Shown here piece by piece: positions 3,778 to 47,034 of a stretch of 47,567 nt of DNA. Numbering within the stretch: position 1 is the stretch's first letter; every line of letters begins with the position of its first letter. The position numbers and the translations under genes were made by a program. The notes beneath the pieces are model-generated. The model made no database searches. It had not been told where the DNA came from and worked only from the letters and a program-made list of their open reading frames with translations. Origin of the DNA: Rhodospirillales bacterium (GTDB lineage: Bacteria > Pseudomonadota > Alphaproteobacteria > BOG-932 > Roseiterribacteraceae); contig JAQGIE010000056.1 in the NCBI GenBank assembly GCA_028291365.1, positions 1-47,567 of the forward strand, read 5' to 3'.

Positions 3778-4629
3778 ATGCGCATTTTCTCCTGTCTCGT
3801 GCTCGCACTGGCGATCGCCGCCTCTGCGAACGCGGCTCCGCTCAAGCTGGTCGCCAGCTTCACGGTGTTGGCCGATCTGGCACGTCAGGTCGGTGGCGAC
3901 GAGGTCGAAGTCACGTCGCTGGTCGGGCCCGACGTCGACGCGCATGGGTTCGAACCCCGCCCAGGCGATGCGCGGCTGTTGGCCGGCGCCGACCTGTTCG
4001 TCGTCAACGGGCTGGGGTTCGACCCGTGGAGCGCCAAGCTCGCCAGATCGTCGGGTTTCGCCGGCGCGATGGTCGTCGCCAGCAACGGCGCCGACCTGCT
4101 CGGCTCGGATCCGCATGCATGGCAGTCGGTCGGCAATGCGCGCATGTACGCCAAGAACATTGCCGACGCGATCGCAGCCAGACTGCCGGCGCGCGCCGAC
4201 GCGATCCGGGCGCGCGCCGCGCGCTACGATGCCACGCTCGTCGCGCTTGACGGGAACATCCGCGCGCAACTCGCCCCGATCCCGCCCGAGCGGCGCGTGC
4301 TGATCACCAATCACGAGGCGTTCGACTATTTCGCCAAGGCCTATGGTCTGACGATGCTGGCGGCGCAGGGATTCTCGACCGAAAGCGAGCCGTCGGCCAA
4401 GGCGGTCGCAAACCTGATCCGCGAAATCAAGGCCCGCAAGGTGACCGCGGTGTTCCTCGAAACCATGTCGAACCAGCAGCTGATGCAACGGGTGGCGCGC
4501 GATACGGGCGTCGCAGTCGGCGGCGCGCTATATGCCGACGCATTGTCGAAGCCGGACGGTCCGGCCGCGACCTATGTCGACATGATGCGCACCAACGCGC
4601 GCACCATCGCCACGGCGCTCGCGAAGTAA
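3778..4629 (+). CDS. znuA: Zinc/manganese ABC transporter substrate-binding protein
   Basis: A 283-residue cluster A-I metal-binding lipocalin-unrelated periplasmic protein with a Sec signal peptide (MRIFSCLVLALAIAASANA). Metal ligands expected for the family are present: His56 (DAHGFEP), His113 (DPHAW), His179 (TNHEAFDYF) and Asp254 (LYADAL). The His-rich loop typical of many ZnuA proteins is missing, so the sequence alone does not separate zinc from manganese. The Zur-like box upstream and the His-rich tail of the partner ATPase favour zinc. The ATG at 3778 is chosen because it gives a clean signal peptide and is preceded by ggaggg; an in-frame ATG at 3757 is less likely. The gene converges on the permease gene, with only 7 bases between stop codons. 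Confidence 0.9.
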   Translation: MRIFSCLVLALAIAASANAAPLKLVASFTVLADLARQVGGDEVEVTSLVGPDVDAHGFEPRPGDARLLAGADLFVVNGLGFDPWSAKLARSSGFAGAMVVASNGADLLGSDPHAWQSVGNARMYAKNIADAIAARLPARADAIRARAARYDATLVALDGNIRAQLAPIPPERRVLITNHEAFDYFAKAYGLTMLAAQGFSTESEPSAKAVANLIREIKARKVTAVFLETMSNQQLMQRVARDTGVAVGGALYADALSKPDGPAATYVDMMRTNARTIATALAK

Positions 4630-4636
4630 CGCGGCG

Positions 4637-5479
4637 TTACCGCGTCGCGAAAAGCCGCCGGTTCGATCGCAGTCCCAGCGACGTGACATAGAGCGCCCCG
4701 GCTGCGAGCACGATGCTGGGCCCGCTCGGCAGATCGAACGCATAGGAGGCGATCAGGCCGGCATAGGACGAGAGCAGGGCGAGCCCGGTGGCCAATGCGA
4801 CCGTGCCGGACAGCGACCGTGCCCAAAGCCGCGCCGTCGCGGGCGGCAGGATCAGCAGGCCGACCGACAGGACCGTGCCCAGCGCCTGAAACCCGGCCAC
4901 GAGATTGAGCACCAGCAGCACCAGGAACAGCGTGTGCGCGATGGTGGCGCCGCCGCGCGCGCGCAGGAAATCGGGATCGACGGTCGACACGACCAGCGCG
5001 CGCCAGCACGCGGCGAGCACCAGCAAGGTGAGGCTCGAGACGGCTGCGATCAGCAGCAACGCGGTGTCATCGATCGCAAGCAGGCTGCCGAACAGCACGT
5101 GGACGAGATCGAGATTGCTGCCCGCCGTGCTGAGGATCGCGACGCCGCTGGCAATGGCAAGAATGTAGAGCGCAGCGAAGCTCGCATCTTCCTGGATCGG
5201 CGTGCTGCGCGTGATGAAGCCGGCGGCGACGGCGATGCACAGGCCGGCGACCAGCCCGCCGAACCCCATCCAGCTCAACGAGAAACCCGCGAACAGGAAG
5301 GCGACCGCCGCGCCCGGCAGCACCGCGTGACTCATCACGTCGGCGACCAGGCTGAGCCGGCGCAGCTGCAACAGCGTGCCCAGCGGGCCCGCTGCGAGCG
5401 ACAGCGCCAGCGCCGCGACGAGTCCGCGTCGCATGAAGCCGAATTCGACGAACGGCGCCCACAGATCGTCAACGTTCAC
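4637..5479 (-). CDS. znuB: Zinc/manganese ABC transporter permease
   Basis: A 280-residue polytopic membrane protein with about eight hydrophobic segments and the ABC-3 family signatures RRLSLVADVMSHAVLPGAA near the N-terminus, DDTALLLIAAV in the middle and VGLLILPPATARLWA towards the end. It forms the membrane channel for the metal released by the binding protein. It lies 12 bases downstream of the ATPase gene, so the two are co-transcribed on the - strand, while the binding protein is on the other strand. Confidence 0.9.
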   Translation of the reverse strand: MNVDDLWAPFVEFGFMRRGLVAALALSLAAGPLGTLLQLRRLSLVADVMSHAVLPGAAVAFLFAGFSLSWMGFGGLVAGLCIAVAAGFITRSTPIQEDASFAALYILAIASGVAILSTAGSNLDLVHVLFGSLLAIDDTALLLIAAVSSLTLLVLAACWRALVVSTVDPDFLRARGGATIAHTLFLVLLVLNLVAGFQALGTVLSVGLLILPPATARLWARSLSGTVALATGLALLSSYAGLIASYAFDLPSGPSIVLAAGALYVTSLGLRSNRRLFATR

Positions 5480-29516: not shown

Positions 29517-30398
29517 GTGTCCCGCCCGCTTGCCAATCTTCTTCTGCTGCTTGCCGCGACAATTTGGGGTGCAGCCTTCGTCGCCCAAACGACCGCGATG
29601 GCGTCGATCGGACCGCTATGGTTCATCGCCATCCGTTTCGCGCTCGCCACCATCGTCGTGGCGCCGTTCGCCCTTCGCGAAGGCGAGGGCGGTATCGGCG
29701 GCGCCGCCAGCTGGCGTTACGGGTCGTCGATCGGCCTGTTCCTGTTTGTCGGTGCGCTGCTGCAGCAGCTCGGCCTGCTGACGACGACCGTCACCAATGG
29801 CGGATTTCTCACCAGCCTCTACGTACTGACGACGCCGGTGCTGGGTTTTTTGTTGTTTGGCGAACGTCCGCATCGCGTGATCTGGCCCGGCGCCGCGCTC
29901 GCGCTGGCGGGGACGTGGCTGCTCGGCGGCGGCATCGACCAGCTCAACTGGGGCGATCTGCTGGTGACGATTGGCGCCGTTGCGTGGGGCATGCAGATCC
30001 TGCTGCTCGGGCGCGGCAGCCGCGCGACCGGACGGCCGCTCCTGCTCAGCGTGCAGCAATTCGCGGTCACCGCGGTGCTCGGCCTGATCGTCGCGGCGTC
30101 GTTCGAACCGATCAGTTTCGCCGCGGTGCGCGGTGCCGCGGTTGAACTGTTTTATGTCGGCGTGATGTCGGGTGGTCTCGCCTTCGCGCTGCAGGCGGTT
30201 GGGCAACGCCACACGCCGAACGCCGACGCCGCCATCATCCTGTCGGCCGAGGCACCGCTTGCTTCGCTGTTCGGCATCGCGCTGCTGGGCGAGCACGTGA
30301 ACATGCCGGGCGCGCTGGGCTGCGCGCTGATCTTCGCCGCGATCCTGCTGGTGCAGCTGGCGCCCGAGTTCGAACGGCGGCGCGTCGCGGCTAGCTGA
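29517..30398 (+). CDS. DMT superfamily transporter (EamA domains)
   Basis: A membrane protein of about 293 residues with ten hydrophobic segments in two EamA repeats (LLLLLAATIWGAAFVAQTTAM at the start; GDLLVTIGAVAWGMQILLLG opening the second). Family members export metabolites or amino acids. The GTG at 29517 is preferred because it precedes the first helix directly; an ATG at 29427 would add 30 residues and overlap the divergent promoter region. No strong ribosome binding site is visible for the GTG. Confidence 0.82.
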   Translation: MSRPLANLLLLLAATIWGAAFVAQTTAMASIGPLWFIAIRFALATIVVAPFALREGEGGIGGAASWRYGSSIGLFLFVGALLQQLGLLTTTVTNGGFLTSLYVLTTPVLGFLLFGERPHRVIWPGAALALAGTWLLGGGIDQLNWGDLLVTIGAVAWGMQILLLGRGSRATGRPLLLSVQQFAVTAVLGLIVAASFEPISFAAVRGAAVELFYVGVMSGGLAFALQAVGQRHTPNADAAIILSAEAPLASLFGIALLGEHVNMPGALGCALIFAAILLVQLAPEFERRRVAAS

Positions 30399-30816
30399 TC
30401 GTCGTCGCCAGCGCGGCCACGATCTTCGACCAACCGATCCGCGTGCGATCGGCATAGTCGGCCCATTCCGGCGGAATCATCGCGGTGAGTGTCGCCTCGG
30501 CGCCGGCACCGCTCGCCGCAATGTCGATCGCGACGCGCGACGGATTGCCCATGCCCGCGATGCCCCAGGTGAAGACGATGCGACGCGGCCGGTCGAGCTC
30601 GAGATATTCGCCGACATGGTCGATCTCCTGTCCGTTGCGGCGGACCAGGAAGGAGAAGCGGCCGCCGACCCTGGCGTCGATTTCGATGTGGAGGATCTCG
30701 TCCTGCATGGTGAGGCCGAACATCCAGCGTCCCACTTGCTCGCGATCGAGCCATGCATCGTAGACGAGCTCCGGCGCGGCGGCGAAGGCGTGGCTGACAC
30801 GGATTTCAGTACTCAC
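30391..30816 (-). CDS. SRPBCC (AHSA1-like) domain protein
   Basis: A 141-residue single-domain protein with START-like/SRPBCC signatures (VSHAFAAAPELVYDAWLDREQVGRWMFG, VGGRFSFLVRR, EYLELDRPRRIVFTWG, GWSKIVAAL). The fold binds hydrophobic ligands in a deep pocket. The GTG start overlaps the stop of the upstream amidotransferase-like gene by 4 bases, so it is the third gene of an operon with the amidoligase. Its 3' end overlaps the convergent DMT transporter gene by 8 bases. Its link to the amidoligase is inferred from coupling only. Confidence 0.85.
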   Translation of the reverse strand: MSTEIRVSHAFAAAPELVYDAWLDREQVGRWMFGLTMQDEILHIEIDARVGGRFSFLVRRNGQEIDHVGEYLELDRPRRIVFTWGIAGMGNPSRVAIDIAASGAGAEATLTAMIPPEWADYADRTRIGWSKIVAALATTIS

Positions 30817-31553
30817 TGATTCTCCGTCACGAGTTCGGGGTCGCATTGCGGCCTGTCCTCGACACGATGGCGCGCCGCGTCGACCAGCGAACGAAATAAA
30901 TTCTGTTCGCGCCGATCGAAGACCAGGAACTCGGGATGCCACTGCACGCCGATCAGGAAACGGCAGCGCGGCACTTCGATCGCCTGCACGATGCCCCAGC
31001 GGTCGAGCGCCGCCACGCGCACACCGTCGCCCAGCCGGTCGACCGACTGGTGATGCAGCGCGTTGACCCGCACGCGCGGCTCGCCCAGCAACGCGGCGAG
31101 GCGCGAGCCCTGCGTGATCTCGACCGACTTGCGCGGCAGCACCGTGCGCAGGCGCGGCGCTTTCACGAACACTTCGTAGATGTCGGTATAGAGCGAGCCG
31201 CCGCGATGCACGTTGATCATCTGGCTGCCGCGGCAGATGCCCAGGACCGGCAGATCGCGTTTGGCCGCCTCCGCCAGCATGCGCAGCTCGAGCCGGTCGC
31301 GCTCTTCGTCGATGCGCACCGCGGGCGCGACTTCGCCGCCATACAGCGTCGCGTCGATATCGTCGCCGCCGCCGATGACCAGCCCGTCGAGCCGGTCGAC
31401 GGGGAATTCATCGACCGCATCGATCTGGACCGAACGCGCCCCGGCGCGCCACAAGGCGAATTTGTTGGCCCGCGACATCCAGCGTCCGCCTTTCACCGAG
31501 GCAGTGACACCGATCAGCGGGCGCGGCGTCAGTGATGTAACGGTTCGATCCAA
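30813..31553 (-). CDS. Class I glutamine amidotransferase-like (peptidase C26) hydrolase
   Basis: A protein of about 246 residues with the gamma-glutamyl hydrolase/PuuD signatures: PLIGVTASVKGG, LVIGGGDDIDATLYGG, the nucleophile in VLGICRGSQMINV, GSLYTDIYE, the conserved VNALHHQSVDRLG and the catalytic His-Glu in GVQWHPEFL. It probably cleaves gamma-glutamyl or related amide bonds. The start is uncertain: the N-terminal PLIGV strand must be included, which leaves a TTG at 31553 or a rare CTG at 31532, both overlapping the end of the amidoligase gene. The tight overlap on both sides shows it is the middle gene of a three-gene operon. Confidence 0.85.
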   Translation of the reverse strand: MDRTVTSLTPRPLIGVTASVKGGRWMSRANKFALWRAGARSVQIDAVDEFPVDRLDGLVIGGGDDIDATLYGGEVAPAVRIDEERDRLELRMLAEAAKRDLPVLGICRGSQMINVHRGGSLYTDIYEVFVKAPRLRTVLPRKSVEITQGSRLAALLGEPRVRVNALHHQSVDRLGDGVRVAALDRWGIVQAIEVPRCRFLIGVQWHPEFLVFDRREQNLFRSLVDAARHRVEDRPQCDPELVTENQ

Positions 31554-32551
31554 ATGCGGCTCATCGGAAGATAGACGTCGAAATTCTCGGTCTTGCTGCA
31601 GTCGCGCCAGATCCGGGCGAGCGCCTCGATGCGCGTCGGATCTTCGGCCAGACGCTCGACCACGATCCAGCGGCGCCAGTCGGGCAGAATCGACCAGCCC
31701 GGCACGCCGACGCGCGAATTGGGCAGGCGCCAATGCCAGGTCGGGCGCGGCTTCGTCTGCCGGTCGGCGATGCGTCGCGAAAACAACGCGGGCGCGGCGT
31801 GCGCGAACAGCGGGAACAGGTCGAGCTCGCGGTTGCGCGACGGATTCCACCGCAGATAGTCGTCGAGAAAACGATCGAAATCGGGTGCGTAGCCGGGGTC
31901 GAGCACGTAGGCGACATAGTCGTCCGAAAACGGATCGATGAAAGGCGACAGGCGCCGCGTCGCATCGAGGTCGCTTTCGGCGCGAAGCCACGGTGCCGCC
32001 AGCAGATAGGCGCGCAGCACCGAAACGAGATACGCGACCTCGAAAGACGGAACTTCGGGATTGAAATGCAGGCCGAACGCATAGAGCAGGCCGCCTTCGG
32101 TACCGACCGCGCCTGCCTTGCGCAGGTCGCCGATCAGCGCGTCAATCTCGGGCAAATCGTGGAACTTCACCGGCGGTGCTGCGATCTCGTGCGGCATCAG
32201 CAGCTTGCCGACATGGCCCCAGGCGGTCCGCAGCTCGTCGAGAAACTCGTCGAGCACGTCGGCATCATCGCGCCTTTGCCGGTGCGCCCAGGACAGGTCG
32301 AGCTCGATGGTGAAATCGCCCAGGCGCGAGCCGCGCACCTGGTAGCGGTGCGGATCGATTTCGACCTGGGTGCCGCCAAATCGGCTCGCCACGAGCTGGG
32401 CCGTCGGCTGCGGATCCAGCTCGGCATATTCGAGCTCGACGCCGACGCGGCGAGGCGCACCTTGTGCGTTGTGCGGGCGGGGTACGTCGAGTGGCGGCAT
32501 CGTCACCCGGTAATGAACGATCGGGGCCGCGGCTTGTTCTTCGGAAGGCAT
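31529..32551 (-). CDS. Amidoligase (Amidoligase_2 / glutamate-cysteine ligase-like fold)
   Basis: A 340-residue protein from the ATG at 32551. The N-terminal RRVGVELEYAELDP has the E-x-E metal-binding motif of the glutamine-synthetase-like amidoligases; FTIELDLSW and YAFGLHFNPEVPSFEVAYLV add further family-type motifs, and a conserved region FDVYLPMSRIWIEPLHH closes the protein. Comparative genomics literature predicts that these enzymes ligate an amine to a carboxylate in an unknown metabolite or peptide and that they pair with class I amidotransferase-like hydrolases, as here. The product is unknown. The start codon overlaps that of the divergent membrane protein gene. Confidence 0.82.
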   Translation of the reverse strand: MPSEEQAAAPIVHYRVTMPPLDVPRPHNAQGAPRRVGVELEYAELDPQPTAQLVASRFGGTQVEIDPHRYQVRGSRLGDFTIELDLSWAHRQRRDDADVLDEFLDELRTAWGHVGKLLMPHEIAAPPVKFHDLPEIDALIGDLRKAGAVGTEGGLLYAFGLHFNPEVPSFEVAYLVSVLRAYLLAAPWLRAESDLDATRRLSPFIDPFSDDYVAYVLDPGYAPDFDRFLDDYLRWNPSRNRELDLFPLFAHAAPALFSRRIADRQTKPRPTWHWRLPNSRVGVPGWSILPDWRRWIVVERLAEDPTRIEALARIWRDCSKTENFDVYLPMSRIWIEPLHH

Positions 32552-33557
32552 GGAGGAAACACCGGCTGGGACCGTACACCCGCGTCCGAAGGGGCGGAAC
32601 CGCCCCCGCTTCATGACCTTGATCACGATCGCGGGCGTCGCGGTCGCGATCCTGCTCGTGACGCGGCTGGTCCTGCGCTGGGGATTCGACGGCATTGCGC
32701 GCGCGGTCGCCGCGATTCCGCCCGAGCGCATGGCGCTGGGCGCGGCCTGCGCCGCGTTCGCCTATCTCTGCTTCGCCGGCTCGGATCTGCTCGGGCTGCG
32801 CTGCCTGTCGCGCCGCTTGCCAGTGCGACGAGTCGTGCTGGCGGCATTTTGTTCCGTCGCGATCGGCCACAATGTCGGGCTCGGCGGCCTGTCGGCGGGC
32901 GCGATCCGGTTTCGTTTTTACGGCGCCTGGGGCCTGTCGCCGATCGAGGCGGGATTTCTCGTGCTGTTCGCCGGGCTGACTTTCCTGCTCGGCCTCGCCA
33001 GCGTCGCGGGAATCGCCGCGTTGATCGAGCTCGCGCCGATGCATGAACGCGCGCTCGGACGGGAGTGGGCGCTGGCGGGGCTGGCGCTGCCGCTCGCCTA
33101 TCTCGCCATGTCGTTGTTCGGCCGCCGGCAGTTCACGGTCATGCGGCAACGCGTGCTGATCCCGCCGCCGCATCTGGCGCTGCTGCAGATTCTGATCGGC
33201 ATCGCCAGCGTGGTGGCGATCGTCGGCGCGCTGCAGGCGCTGCTGCCGCCCGGCGTGCCGTGGACGTCGATCGCCACCGCCTATGTCGCGGCCGATCTCA
33301 CCGCGACCCTGTCGACCGTTCCGGGCGGCTGGGGCGTGCTCGAATCGGTCGTCGTCTGGCTGTTGCCGGGCGTCGATCCGATCGGCGCGCTGGTGTCGTT
33401 CCGTGTCGTCTATTACGTCGCGCCGCTGGCCCTCGCGGCCGTGCTGCTGGTCGCGTTCGAGCTCGCGCAGCGCCGCGCCAAATCACGCGTCCGGCGCGTC
33501 CGCTTCAAGGTTTTGCCGGTGCCGGAACGCCATACTGCGTGGCCAGATAGTCGGTGA
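32550..33557 (+). CDS. Lysylphosphatidylglycerol synthase TM-region-like (UPF0104) membrane protein
   Basis: A 335-residue membrane protein with about eight hydrophobic segments. Its family motifs are FCSVAIGHNVGLGGLSAGAIRFRFYGAWG, YVAADLTATLSTVPGGWGVLE and LVSFRVVYYVAPLALA, characteristic of the flippase-like domain of MprF and AglD-related proteins. No aminoacyl-transferase domain is attached. The ATG at 32550 has ggaag just upstream; an ATG at 32613 would remove a 21-residue charged N-terminus. It is divergent from the amidoligase operon with no intergenic space. It may flip or modify an envelope lipid; a link to the amidoligase product is speculation. Confidence 0.82.
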   Translation: MEETPAGTVHPRPKGRNRPRFMTLITIAGVAVAILLVTRLVLRWGFDGIARAVAAIPPERMALGAACAAFAYLCFAGSDLLGLRCLSRRLPVRRVVLAAFCSVAIGHNVGLGGLSAGAIRFRFYGAWGLSPIEAGFLVLFAGLTFLLGLASVAGIAALIELAPMHERALGREWALAGLALPLAYLAMSLFGRRQFTVMRQRVLIPPPHLALLQILIGIASVVAIVGALQALLPPGVPWTSIATAYVAADLTATLSTVPGGWGVLESVVVWLLPGVDPIGALVSFRVVYYVAPLALAAVLLVAFELAQRRAKSRVRRVRFKVLPVPERHTAWPDSR

Positions 33558-33807
33558 TGATCTTGGCGTCGGCGGCTTCGATCGGCGCGCCATAGGCCTT
33601 GATCATCTTCTGCACCACGTCGTTCCACACTTGCGGCGTCATGAAGGTCGAATTCATGCGCACATAATCGAGGCTGTGGCACATGGCACAGTTCTGCTCG
33701 ACCGTGTCGTGCCCGGGCGCCGGTTTGAGTTTGATCGCGTCCTCGTCGGCCATTGCCGGGGCGGCGAAGAAGAGCAGGGAAGCGGCGAGCAGGTTTCGCA
33801 TCATCAT
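33505..33807 (-). CDS. sorB: Sulfite dehydrogenase cytochrome c subunit
   Basis: A 100-residue protein with a Sec signal peptide (RNLLAASLLFFAAPAMA) and one haem-binding CAMCH at residues 40-44; the segment HSLDYVRMNSTFMTPQVWNDVVQKM is typical of the SorB/quinohaem-type small cytochromes. It takes electrons from SorA. Three ATG codons in a row (33807, 33804, 33801) overlap the sorA stop codon; the exact start is ambiguous by one or two residues. The 3' end overlaps the end of the convergent flippase-like gene by about 50 bases. Confidence 0.88.
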   Translation of the reverse strand: MMMRNLLAASLLFFAAPAMADEDAIKLKPAPGHDTVEQNCAMCHSLDYVRMNSTFMTPQVWNDVVQKMIKAYGAPIEAADAKIITDYLATQYGVPAPAKP

Positions 33808-35042
33808 GCTCCGACGTCCAACGTCACGCGCTGCATGACGTTGTGGTGGTACCCGGCGGGATTGGGAATCAGTTCGGCGGTCTGCGTCTGGCCGATCTTG
33901 TTGGAGGCGCGCGCGACGATCACCGCCTTGCCCGAATTCTTGGGCTGGAAGCGGAAGGAGAAGGGGCGGAATGAGAAACGTCCGGGATCGTCGCCGAGAT
34001 TGGCCTCGCTCCAGCTCGAACCGCCATCGGTCGAGATCTCGACCGAGTTGATGCCGTAGCCGCCATCCCAGGCCATGCCGCGTATGTCGACCTGCTGTCC
34101 GACTTTCACGCGCTGTCCGTTGCTGAGATTGCTGATGATCGAATTGACCATGATCTCGGTGATCGGCGCGTTGCTGTCGTTCTCCTGGCCGAGGAAGCGC
34201 TGCACCACCGGGAACTTGCCTTGCGGAATCCGGTACGCCGTCTTCATCCAGTAATTGTCGAGCGGCTTGGTCAGCAGCTCGAGCGAGATGACGTGTTTCA
34301 TCCAATAGGTCGCGGTCCAGCCGGGCACCACGATGCGGGCGGGGTAGCCGTTCCAATGCGGCAGCGGCGCGCCGTTCATCGAGGTCGCGATCAGCACCGT
34401 GTCGTCGAGCGCTTTCCACAGCGGAAGCGATTTGGCGAAGTCGGGCGTCTTCTCGAGCGGCGGTGAATCGGCGCCGTCCAGGCGCAACTCGACCGCTTCC
34501 TTCTTCACGCCGGCCTTGGCCAGCACGTCCTTCAGGCGCACGCCCTTCCATTTCGCGTTGCCGATCGCGCCCTGGCCCCATTGCACGCCGGGCACGTGCG
34601 GCTGGAACAGGCCGCGCCGGTTGCCCGAACACAGGCAGACGGCGGCGATTTCGACCTGCTCGAAGTCGCGATTCAGCTGGTCGAACGTGAGTTCGAACGG
34701 CGTCGTCGCGCCTTCGCCGCCGATCTTGAGCCGCCATTCCTGGGCGTCGACTTCGGGAATGACGGCGAGGTGATAGCGCACGAAGAAGGCGTCGTTGGGC
34801 GTCCACAACTGATCGAAATAGGAGAACGGCGTTTCGTAGTTGGGCGGGCGGTAGCTGAGCTTGATCAGCGGCTTCTTGCCCGGCAGCGCTTCGAGGGTCG
34901 CGATCTCGCGCACCCCGTCGGGCTGTGCCGGGTCGAACTGGATTGCGGCGGGCGGGTCCGCGGCGCGTGCCGCGGCCGGCACCAGAGACAGCAGCGCGGC
35001 ATGGCTTGATGCGCGCAACAGATCGCGTCGTGTAACGTCCAT
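33804..35042 (-). CDS. sorA: Sulfite dehydrogenase molybdopterin subunit, Tat-exported
   Basis: From the ATG at 35042 (ggagggcaaa upstream) the protein has 412 residues. A twin-arginine signal (TRRDLLRASSHAALLSLVPAAARA) is followed by the sulfite-oxidase molybdenum domain with the cysteine ligand in VCLCSGNRRGLF (Cys138), then GAPLPHWNGYPARIVVPGW and a C-terminal dimerisation domain (VEISTDGGSSWSEANLG). It oxidises sulfite to sulfate in the periplasm and donates electrons to SorB. Substrate is inferred from the family; related SoxCD and YedY branches lack this pairing. Confidence 0.9.
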   Translation of the reverse strand: MDVTRRDLLRASSHAALLSLVPAAARAADPPAAIQFDPAQPDGVREIATLEALPGKKPLIKLSYRPPNYETPFSYFDQLWTPNDAFFVRYHLAVIPEVDAQEWRLKIGGEGATTPFELTFDQLNRDFEQVEIAAVCLCSGNRRGLFQPHVPGVQWGQGAIGNAKWKGVRLKDVLAKAGVKKEAVELRLDGADSPPLEKTPDFAKSLPLWKALDDTVLIATSMNGAPLPHWNGYPARIVVPGWTATYWMKHVISLELLTKPLDNYWMKTAYRIPQGKFPVVQRFLGQENDSNAPITEIMVNSIISNLSNGQRVKVGQQVDIRGMAWDGGYGINSVEISTDGGSSWSEANLGDDPGRFSFRPFSFRFQPKNSGKAVIVARASNKIGQTQTAELIPNPAGYHHNVMQRVTLDVGA

Positions 35043-35062
35043 TTTGCCCTCCATCCAGCGCG

Positions 35063-35632
35063 TCACTTCCTGCGCCGGGCGACGATCTCCTGCGTCACGT
35101 TCCAGCTCGAGCCGCGGTCGGGCGACACCATCGAGCGCCAGCGGAACGAGTCGGTCCGAATCTCGCTGAACACCCAGCGCGACGGCCGGCCGTCGGGGGT
35201 GACGCCGTCATGCACGATCTCGTCGCCATGCTGCTTTGCGGTGAAGGTCTGCAGCGTGCCTTGCACCGGCCCGACCCAGGCGATGAACCAGGTGCCGGTC
35301 TTGGGATCGAAGCTGCGCAGGCTCGATCCCCATTCGCGCGGCTGTCCGCCATCGCTGCGCGCCGGAACGATGAACACGTCCTGCACCGCGCGCCCGTCGA
35401 GCACCCACCCGAAATGCCACTCGCCGGTGCTGCGCTGCTGCGCCTGGCCGTCCTGATAGCGCAGGACCTCGCAGTCCCAGTTGCCGACGAACTGCCCGAA
35501 CAGCTTCAACTGGTCGGCGAGGGCCGGGTTGGGGCCGTTCGCTTCGAGACCCTCGACCGCGGCCGAGGCCGGGCCGGCAGCGAGCAGCGACAGAATCAGC
35601 ATCAGAAACCGGAACAGGCGGGGGCCGTGCAT
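35063..35632 (-). CDS. Secreted DUF1579-like protein heading the sorAB operon
   Basis: A 189-residue protein with a Sec signal peptide (FRFLMLILSLLAAGPASA) and a lipocalin-like beta domain (LKLFGQFVGNWDCEVLRYQDG, GEWHFGWVLDGRAVQDVFIV, GTWFIAWVGPVQGTLQTFTAKQ). The GNW motif near residue 50 is typical of DUF1579-type small beta-barrels. A GGAG lies before the ATG. The stop codon is 20 bases before sorA, so all three genes form one operon. Function is unknown; it may bind a small ligand or assist the sulfite dehydrogenase. Confidence 0.78.
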   Translation of the reverse strand: MHGPRLFRFLMLILSLLAAGPASAAVEGLEANGPNPALADQLKLFGQFVGNWDCEVLRYQDGQAQQRSTGEWHFGWVLDGRAVQDVFIVPARSDGGQPREWGSSLRSFDPKTGTWFIAWVGPVQGTLQTFTAKQHGDEIVHDGVTPDGRPSRWVFSEIRTDSFRWRSMVSPDRGSSWNVTQEIVARRRK

Positions 35633-46271: not shown

Positions 46272-46624
46272 AACGAAAACGAGCCGACCTCGACGCGGTG
46301 TTTGCCGCGCTGGCGAGTGAACCGCGCCGGCGCATGCTGGAACGGCTGCGTGCGGGTCAGGCGAACATCTCCGAGATCGCCGAGCCGTTCGACATGTCGC
46401 TGTTCGGCGTATCGAAGCATCTCAAAGTTTTGGAACAGGCCGGGCTGGTCCGGCGCGAGATCGTCGGGCGCGAACATCGATTCGCGGCCGAGATCGACGC
46501 CATCGCCGATGCTGAACGCTGGATGCAGACGCATCTCGCCTTCTGGCATCTGCGGCTCGACGCGCTCGACAAACATATCCAGAAAAGTTCAGTGCCGACT
46601 AAACGCGGGAAGAAACGCACATGA
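46265..46624 (+). CDS. ArsR family winged-helix transcriptional regulator
   Basis: A 119-residue regulator with the ArsR HTH (DAVFAALASEPRRRMLERL, ISEIAEPFDMSLFGVSKHLKVLEQAGLV) and the wing RREIVGREHRFA. No cysteine metal-binding motif is present, so it belongs to the metal-independent SdpR-like group that is typically paired with SRPBCC genes. A Trp/His-rich C-terminal helix (AERWMQTHLAFWHLRLDALDKHI) is typical of that group. The stop overlaps the start of the SRPBCC gene (ATGA). There is no usual Shine-Dalgarno sequence before the ATG. Autoregulation through the two inverted repeats is likely. Confidence 0.92.
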   Translation: MVERKRADLDAVFAALASEPRRRMLERLRAGQANISEIAEPFDMSLFGVSKHLKVLEQAGLVRREIVGREHRFAAEIDAIADAERWMQTHLAFWHLRLDALDKHIQKSSVPTKRGKKRT

Positions 46625-47034
46625 CGACGCAGGTCAAAATCCGCCGCACCTACGATGTGCCGGCGCAACGGATCTATGATGCATGGACCGACCCAGAACA
46701 GGTCCGCCAATGGTTGACGCTGGGTGGCACCTACGAAGGTACCGTGCGCGTCGGCGGCAAGTACCAGCTCAACATGATCGACGACGGCAATGTGAAGGAG
46801 CAGAGCGGCACATATTTGCATCTCGACCCGCCGCACCTGATCGAATTCACCTGGTTCAGCACGTGCGGCACCTACGGCAAGGAGTCGTTGGTGCGGATCG
46901 AAATCACCGATCTCGGATCGTCCTGCGAAATGGTGCTGACGCATACCAAGCTGCCCGAAGACAAGGTCCAGGGTCACACCGAGGGCTGGACTCAGTTCGC
47001 CGAAATTCTCGCCAAGCAGGTGGGAAGCCGGTGA
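46621..47034 (+). CDS. SRPBCC (AHSA1/ATPase activator-like) domain protein
   Basis: A 137-residue single-domain protein with the family pattern IRRTYDVPAQRIYDAWTDPEQVRQWL, VRVGGKYQLNMIDDG, GTYLHLDPPHLIEFTWF and CEMVLTHTKLPEDKVQGHTEGW. It is encoded directly after, and overlapping, the ArsR gene, the usual pair in which the SRPBCC protein binds a hydrophobic ligand or acts on it. The function is unknown. Its stop overlaps the GTG of a collapsed second copy. Confidence 0.9.
   Translation: MTTQVKIRRTYDVPAQRIYDAWTDPEQVRQWLTLGGTYEGTVRVGGKYQLNMIDDGNVKEQSGTYLHLDPPHLIEFTWFSTCGTYGKESLVRIEITDLGSSCEMVLTHTKLPEDKVQGHTEGWTQFAEILAKQVGSR

Follow-up and report, generated by a model that had tools for sequence, protein, structure and literature searches.

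Do four adjacent genes for an amidoligase, a class I amidotransferase-like hydrolase, an SRPBCC protein and a flippase-like membrane protein form one system, and what reaction might its true core carry out? We addressed this question in a stretch of 47,567 nucleotides (the window), which is the whole of contig C63 in an alphaproteobacterial genome of 4.37 Mb. An earlier note on this DNA had placed the four genes here, and profile matches for all four proteins bear this out (Table 1).

Table 1. The four genes of the locus, with positions in the window and profile matches
Feature	Position	Strand	Profile match
AHSA1-type SRPBCC protein, 141 aa, GTG start	30391..30816	-	PF08327 4e-20
Peptidase C26, gamma-glutamyl-amide hydrolase type, TTG start	30813..31553	-	PF07722 3e-47
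Amidoligase_2 ligase	31529..32500 (proposed ATG start) or 32551 (longer frame)	-	PF12224 4e-50
Stand-alone MprF flippase-half-like membrane protein	32550 (or start 32613)..33557	+	NF033480 4.6e-47

The four genes do not stand together by chance: their arrangement recurs in Rhodospirillales bacterium TMPK1, a sister genome of the same genus. Differences between the two in these genes lie mostly at third codon positions, and dN/dS values of about 0.19-0.31 against TMPK1 point to purifying selection on all four. TMPK1 keeps the whole neighbourhood too, including EamA and SorAB. The SorA/SorB-type sulfite dehydrogenase genes (33505-35066, - strand) adjoin the flippase gene in the window and are likewise kept in TMPK1, while the SRPBCC gene and the convergent EamA transporter gene have 8 nt of their 3′ ends in common (30391-30398), again as in TMPK1.

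The minus-strand genes had been described as coupled by overlapping ends, and this appears to hold. In TMPK1 as in the window, the SRPBCC gene, with its GTG at 30816, shares 4 nt with the end of the C26 gene. The C26 gene in turn shares 25 nt with the amidoligase gene, given a C26 start at the TTG at 31553, its most likely start; the same position is GTG in TMPK1. The start codons of the amidoligase and flippase genes, on opposite strands, had also been reported to overlap. This is probably an artefact of choosing the start of the longest frame, because the amidoligase ATG at 32551 in the window is ATC in TMPK1, whereas a second ATG (32500-32498) is kept in TMPK1 and fits the N-termini of homologues, which begin approximately 17 codons downstream of the 32551 ATG. 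The flippase ATG at 32550 is itself kept in TMPK1, and with an amidoligase start at 32500 the two divergent genes would lie about 49 bp apart, an unremarkable distance.

We surveyed 56 loci, TMPK1 among them, around relatives of the amidoligase from alpha- and other proteobacteria and from plasmids, which with the window gave 57 loci that are not mutually independent; genes in unannotated loci were called with a simple codon-usage script. A C26 gene lies directly downstream of the amidoligase gene, on the same strand, in 48/57 loci (window included) from many proteobacterial families, commonly with a 4-nt overlap. The pairing of an amidoligase with a class I amidotransferase-like protein, on which the earlier note had built, is therefore genuine and widely conserved. 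Amidoligase_2 is patchily distributed, being present in 15 of the 144 alphaproteobacterial genomes sampled; the amidoligase was absent from the other sampled genus of the same family. A search for viral or phage relatives of the amidoligase subfamily found none. On plasmid pDSHI02 of Dinoroseobacter shibae (locus L063), the pair lies downstream of a dihydroneopterin aldolase gene, in a stretch that also carries PRC-barrel and small membrane-protein genes.

The amidoligase is a full-length member of its family, matching PF12224 over positions 2-245 of 245 with 171 bits (cut-off 22). ExE, D85, E122, R239, D244, R269, H273 and R275 are invariant in every aligned row, and such acidic and basic residues would fit an ATP-dependent ligase, although the roles of individual residues are presumed. 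Structural modelling did not confirm a GS/GCS-type fold: the AF2 model, built from five sequences, was poor (pLDDT 62) and gave a weak partial VIA-align match to glutamate-cysteine ligase (2gwc, Z 5.0) among unrelated rows. Its Foldseek matches, mostly to kinases at E > 0.2, are meaningless and were discarded.

The partner belongs to Peptidase C26 (PF07722, 162 bits) and has the Cys107-His206-Glu208 triad, each residue of which is invariant in 48/48 amidoligase-linked C26 proteins. Its profile lies closest to the solved structures Lin1909, SpuA and PuuD (2e-48 to 9e-35), while glutamine amidotransferases match it at 5e-13 or worse; in sequence, the linked C26 proteins resemble gamma-glutamyl hydrolases much more than glutamine amidotransferases. 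In a maximum-likelihood tree of the 48 linked and 30 unlinked alphaproteobacterial C26 proteins, the linked ones form one clade (support 100/98). As these first 30 unlinked proteins were the best Pfam scorers, we added 25 lower-scoring ones, bringing the unlinked sample to 55, and none of the 25 fell within the linked clade (FastTree support 0.97). One position sets the linked clade apart. Residue 190 lies a short way before the GVQWHPE stretch, in which the catalytic His and Glu reside; all 48 linked proteins have Gln at this position, and all 53 unlinked proteins that cover the column have Glu. The equivalent residue is also Glu in SpuA and Lin1909, as well as in the other strong C26 match of the window's genome (L087). 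The linked C26 proteins thus lack both marks of the PuuD/SpuA-type unlinked group, namely Glu at 190 and grouping with unlinked C26.

Nine amidoligases, from Azospirillum, Microvirga, Rhodovastum, Indioceanicola and others, have no adjoining C26 gene; they form a single clade (0.997), and their key residues are unchanged. Four whole genomes of this clade were searched for a Gln190-type C26 and none was found: one genome gave no C26 match, the three matches with a readable motif carry Glu, and the remaining match scored 108 bits. The hydrolase therefore seems dispensable in this clade, and one loss would be the simplest reading. A very divergent Amidoligase_2 (43 bits; L207, G117:C6, about 3871-4866) was also recorded, with no C26 found in the surrounding 9 kb. 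The pairing as such had been predicted before; the linked C26 clade, its fixed Gln190 and the single clade of solitary amidoligases are new. This may have practical application, as a distinct lineage confined to linked loci and marked by one fixed substitution makes further members cheap to find and provides a hypothesis on specificity that can be assayed.

The pairing is conserved, the catalytic residues are intact and the hydrolases form a dedicated clade. We therefore consider the functional unit to be the two-gene amidoligase-C26 pair, and give an even chance to the reading that it comprises an ATP-dependent gamma-glutamyl ligase and a dedicated deglutamylase acting on an amine. The amidoligase would activate a carboxylate with ATP, probably the gamma-carboxyl of glutamate, and join it to the amine group of a small molecule; the co-translated C26 would hydrolyse the same amide through Cys107, His206 and Glu208. 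By acting on the amide of its own partner ligase, the hydrolase would enable the pair to mask and unmask the amine, in the manner of AtdA1/AtdA2 and PuuA/PuuD. We infer the glutamate donor, the amine acceptor and the order of these steps. To our knowledge, neither a substrate for any member of this subfamily nor a product of the pair has been reported, and the pair stands as a named prediction. The Pfam entry PF12224 reportedly names GAT-like peptidases in proteobacteria and Aig2-type cyclotransferases in firmicutes as partners, and glutamate is favoured as the donor because these two unrelated partner types act on gamma-glutamyl bonds. In phages, amidoligase clusters include a putative gamma-glutamyl cyclotransferase, a further enzyme type that cleaves gamma-glutamyl bonds (PMC11945000).

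A different amide is conceivable. All linked C26 proteins have replaced the Glu190 of all unlinked ones by Gln, and hence the substrate may not be a gamma-glutamyl amine of the Puu type. We tentatively entertain, as possible although short of probable, that the pair makes and breaks an amide other than the known gamma-glutamyl amines, an unrecognised metabolite or modification of patchy occurrence in Proteobacteria, with the Glu-to-Gln change marking a switched substrate. Neighbouring genes point to no consistent acceptor. Among 69 neighbouring proteins scanned against Pfam, no family recurred in more than three members; operonic neighbours are diverse (permeases, hydrolases, GreA/B, sortase, anthranilate synthase and others), and no amine oxidase, aminotransferase, polyamine or PuuB/PuuC-like gene recurs beside the pair. 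Polytopic membrane proteins account for 12/40 neighbours against 62/450 (uncorrected p = 0.01, two close-relative pairs included), a modest excess that weakens once close relatives are merged. In three loci from two proteobacterial classes (L036, L041 and L127), a CitMHS/TrkA_C-type (citrate-transporter-type) permease gene lies upstream of the amidoligase gene on the same strand. Two apparent themes were rejected. A link to sulfur, suggested by SorAB in the window and TauE in two close relatives (L039/L040), was dropped, TauE and SorAB not being found together; and the S9 peptidases near the amidoligase in the window and in Oleisolibacter (L005) show marginal direct similarity (4e-8), with no S9 peptidase detected beside the pair in TMPK1.

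Rather unlikely, in our view, is a role in modifying peptidoglycan or a peptide tag, whereby the ligase would attach an amino-acid side chain to a cell-wall precursor or to a protein and C26 would trim it. It has a precedent in LUZ24-like phages, where a GGCT, an ATP-grasp protein, an amidoligase and a COOH-NH2 ligase form a putative peptidoglycan modification module (PMC11945000). However, this phage module has several ligases and the window locus one, and cell-wall genes do not recur among the pair's neighbours, which include one transglycosylase and one sortase.

We also doubt that the two proteins form a glutamine-dependent amidotransferase, in which the C26 protein as glutaminase would feed ammonia to the amidoligase for conversion of a carboxylate to a carboxamide, in the way that GatD/MurT or CTP synthase work. 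Such a complex would be in keeping with the class I GAT fold and triad of C26 and with the tight co-translation of the two genes. Against it speak the much closer kinship of C26 to gamma-glutamyl hydrolases than to GATases, the lack of any amidoligase-C26 fusion among the loci seen, and the nine amidoligases that stand alone with key residues unchanged.

Whether the SRPBCC and flippase genes belong with the ligase and hydrolase is a separate matter. The SRPBCC protein is a member of AHSA1/SRPBCC (PF08327, 72.7 bits against a gathering cut-off of 22.1), and the window holds another AHSA1-type SRPBCC gene (46621-47016, + strand), whose product is 35% identical to that of the copy at 30391. The flippase-like protein has no Pfam match; it aligns with positions 6-312 of 841 of NF033480 at 160.8 bits, against a cut-off of 600, and matches solved MprF structures at 1e-25. 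Of the flippase and LPG-synthase halves that make up a bifunctional MprF, it matches the flippase half only. A probable full-length MprF is encoded elsewhere in the genome (G000:C249:5373-6272, L071), judging from a match inside an 865-904-aa open frame, so that the window gene would be a stand-alone flippase-half paralogue.

When HMMs for both proteins were run over the 56 wide loci, TMPK1 alone matched besides the window (two genomes of one genus), although, used as queries, the two proteins detect paralogues of 30-39% identity at other places in genomes. Outside the genus, none of the surveyed loci has either gene next to the pair, so the pair commonly occurs without them, an outcome of the four-gene neighbourhood search that the earlier note itself had named as speaking against its proposal. 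The four-gene system was accordingly rejected, the SRPBCC and flippase genes standing beside the pair only in the window genome and TMPK1. We regard them as lineage-specific neighbours of the pair, with at most the co-translated SRPBCC protein as an accessory in this genus; such a role is possible because its co-translation is kept there. The amide-modified lipid or envelope compound that had been proposed lacks support on this view, its adjacency argument being confined to two congeneric genomes, and the lipid reading of the locus draws on genus-level gene order only. A pathway in which all four proteins make, bind and move such a compound thus appears very improbable: the four genes lie side by side in the two genomes of the genus, where SRPBCC is also co-translated with C26, but the flanking EamA and SorAB genes are equally conserved there, the start-codon overlap is not, and no other surveyed locus has SRPBCC or flippase next to the pair.

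How, then, does the locus compare with known systems? Relative to MprF/LpiA, the lysyl-phosphatidylglycerol flippase-synthase, the divergent gene of the window corresponds to the flippase half without the synthase half. For the pair, Iyer et al. are said to have predicted in 2009 that Amidoligase_2 (PF12224) would be paired with a GAT-like thiol peptidase. Our pair resembles theirs in ligase family (4e-50), kind of partner and conserved neighbourhood; whereas theirs was a general prediction, the partner here is a dedicated Gln190 C26 clade, to which the window genus adds a co-translated SRPBCC protein. Adjacent genes for a ligase (gamma-glutamyl arylamide synthase) and a GAT-like hydrolase also act on aromatic amines, where the hydrolase reverses gamma-glutamylation by a glutamine-synthetase-like ligase, as established for AtdA1/AtdA2 (aniline) and proposed for NpaA1/NpaA2 (naphthylamine) (PMC11335346). 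Those ligases differ in family from the PF12224 ligase of the window, and dioxygenase genes accompany them that are absent at the window pair. Finally, the C26 protein is homologous to PuuD and SpuA of putrescine and polyamine catabolism, although it belongs to a clade of its own, in which residue 190 is Gln and not Glu, and has no recurrent PuuB/PuuC-like neighbours, and its partner ligase comes from a different family than PuuA. Nevertheless, the logic of PuuA/PuuD, to ligate and then to hydrolyse, is the one we propose for the amidoligase-C26 pair.
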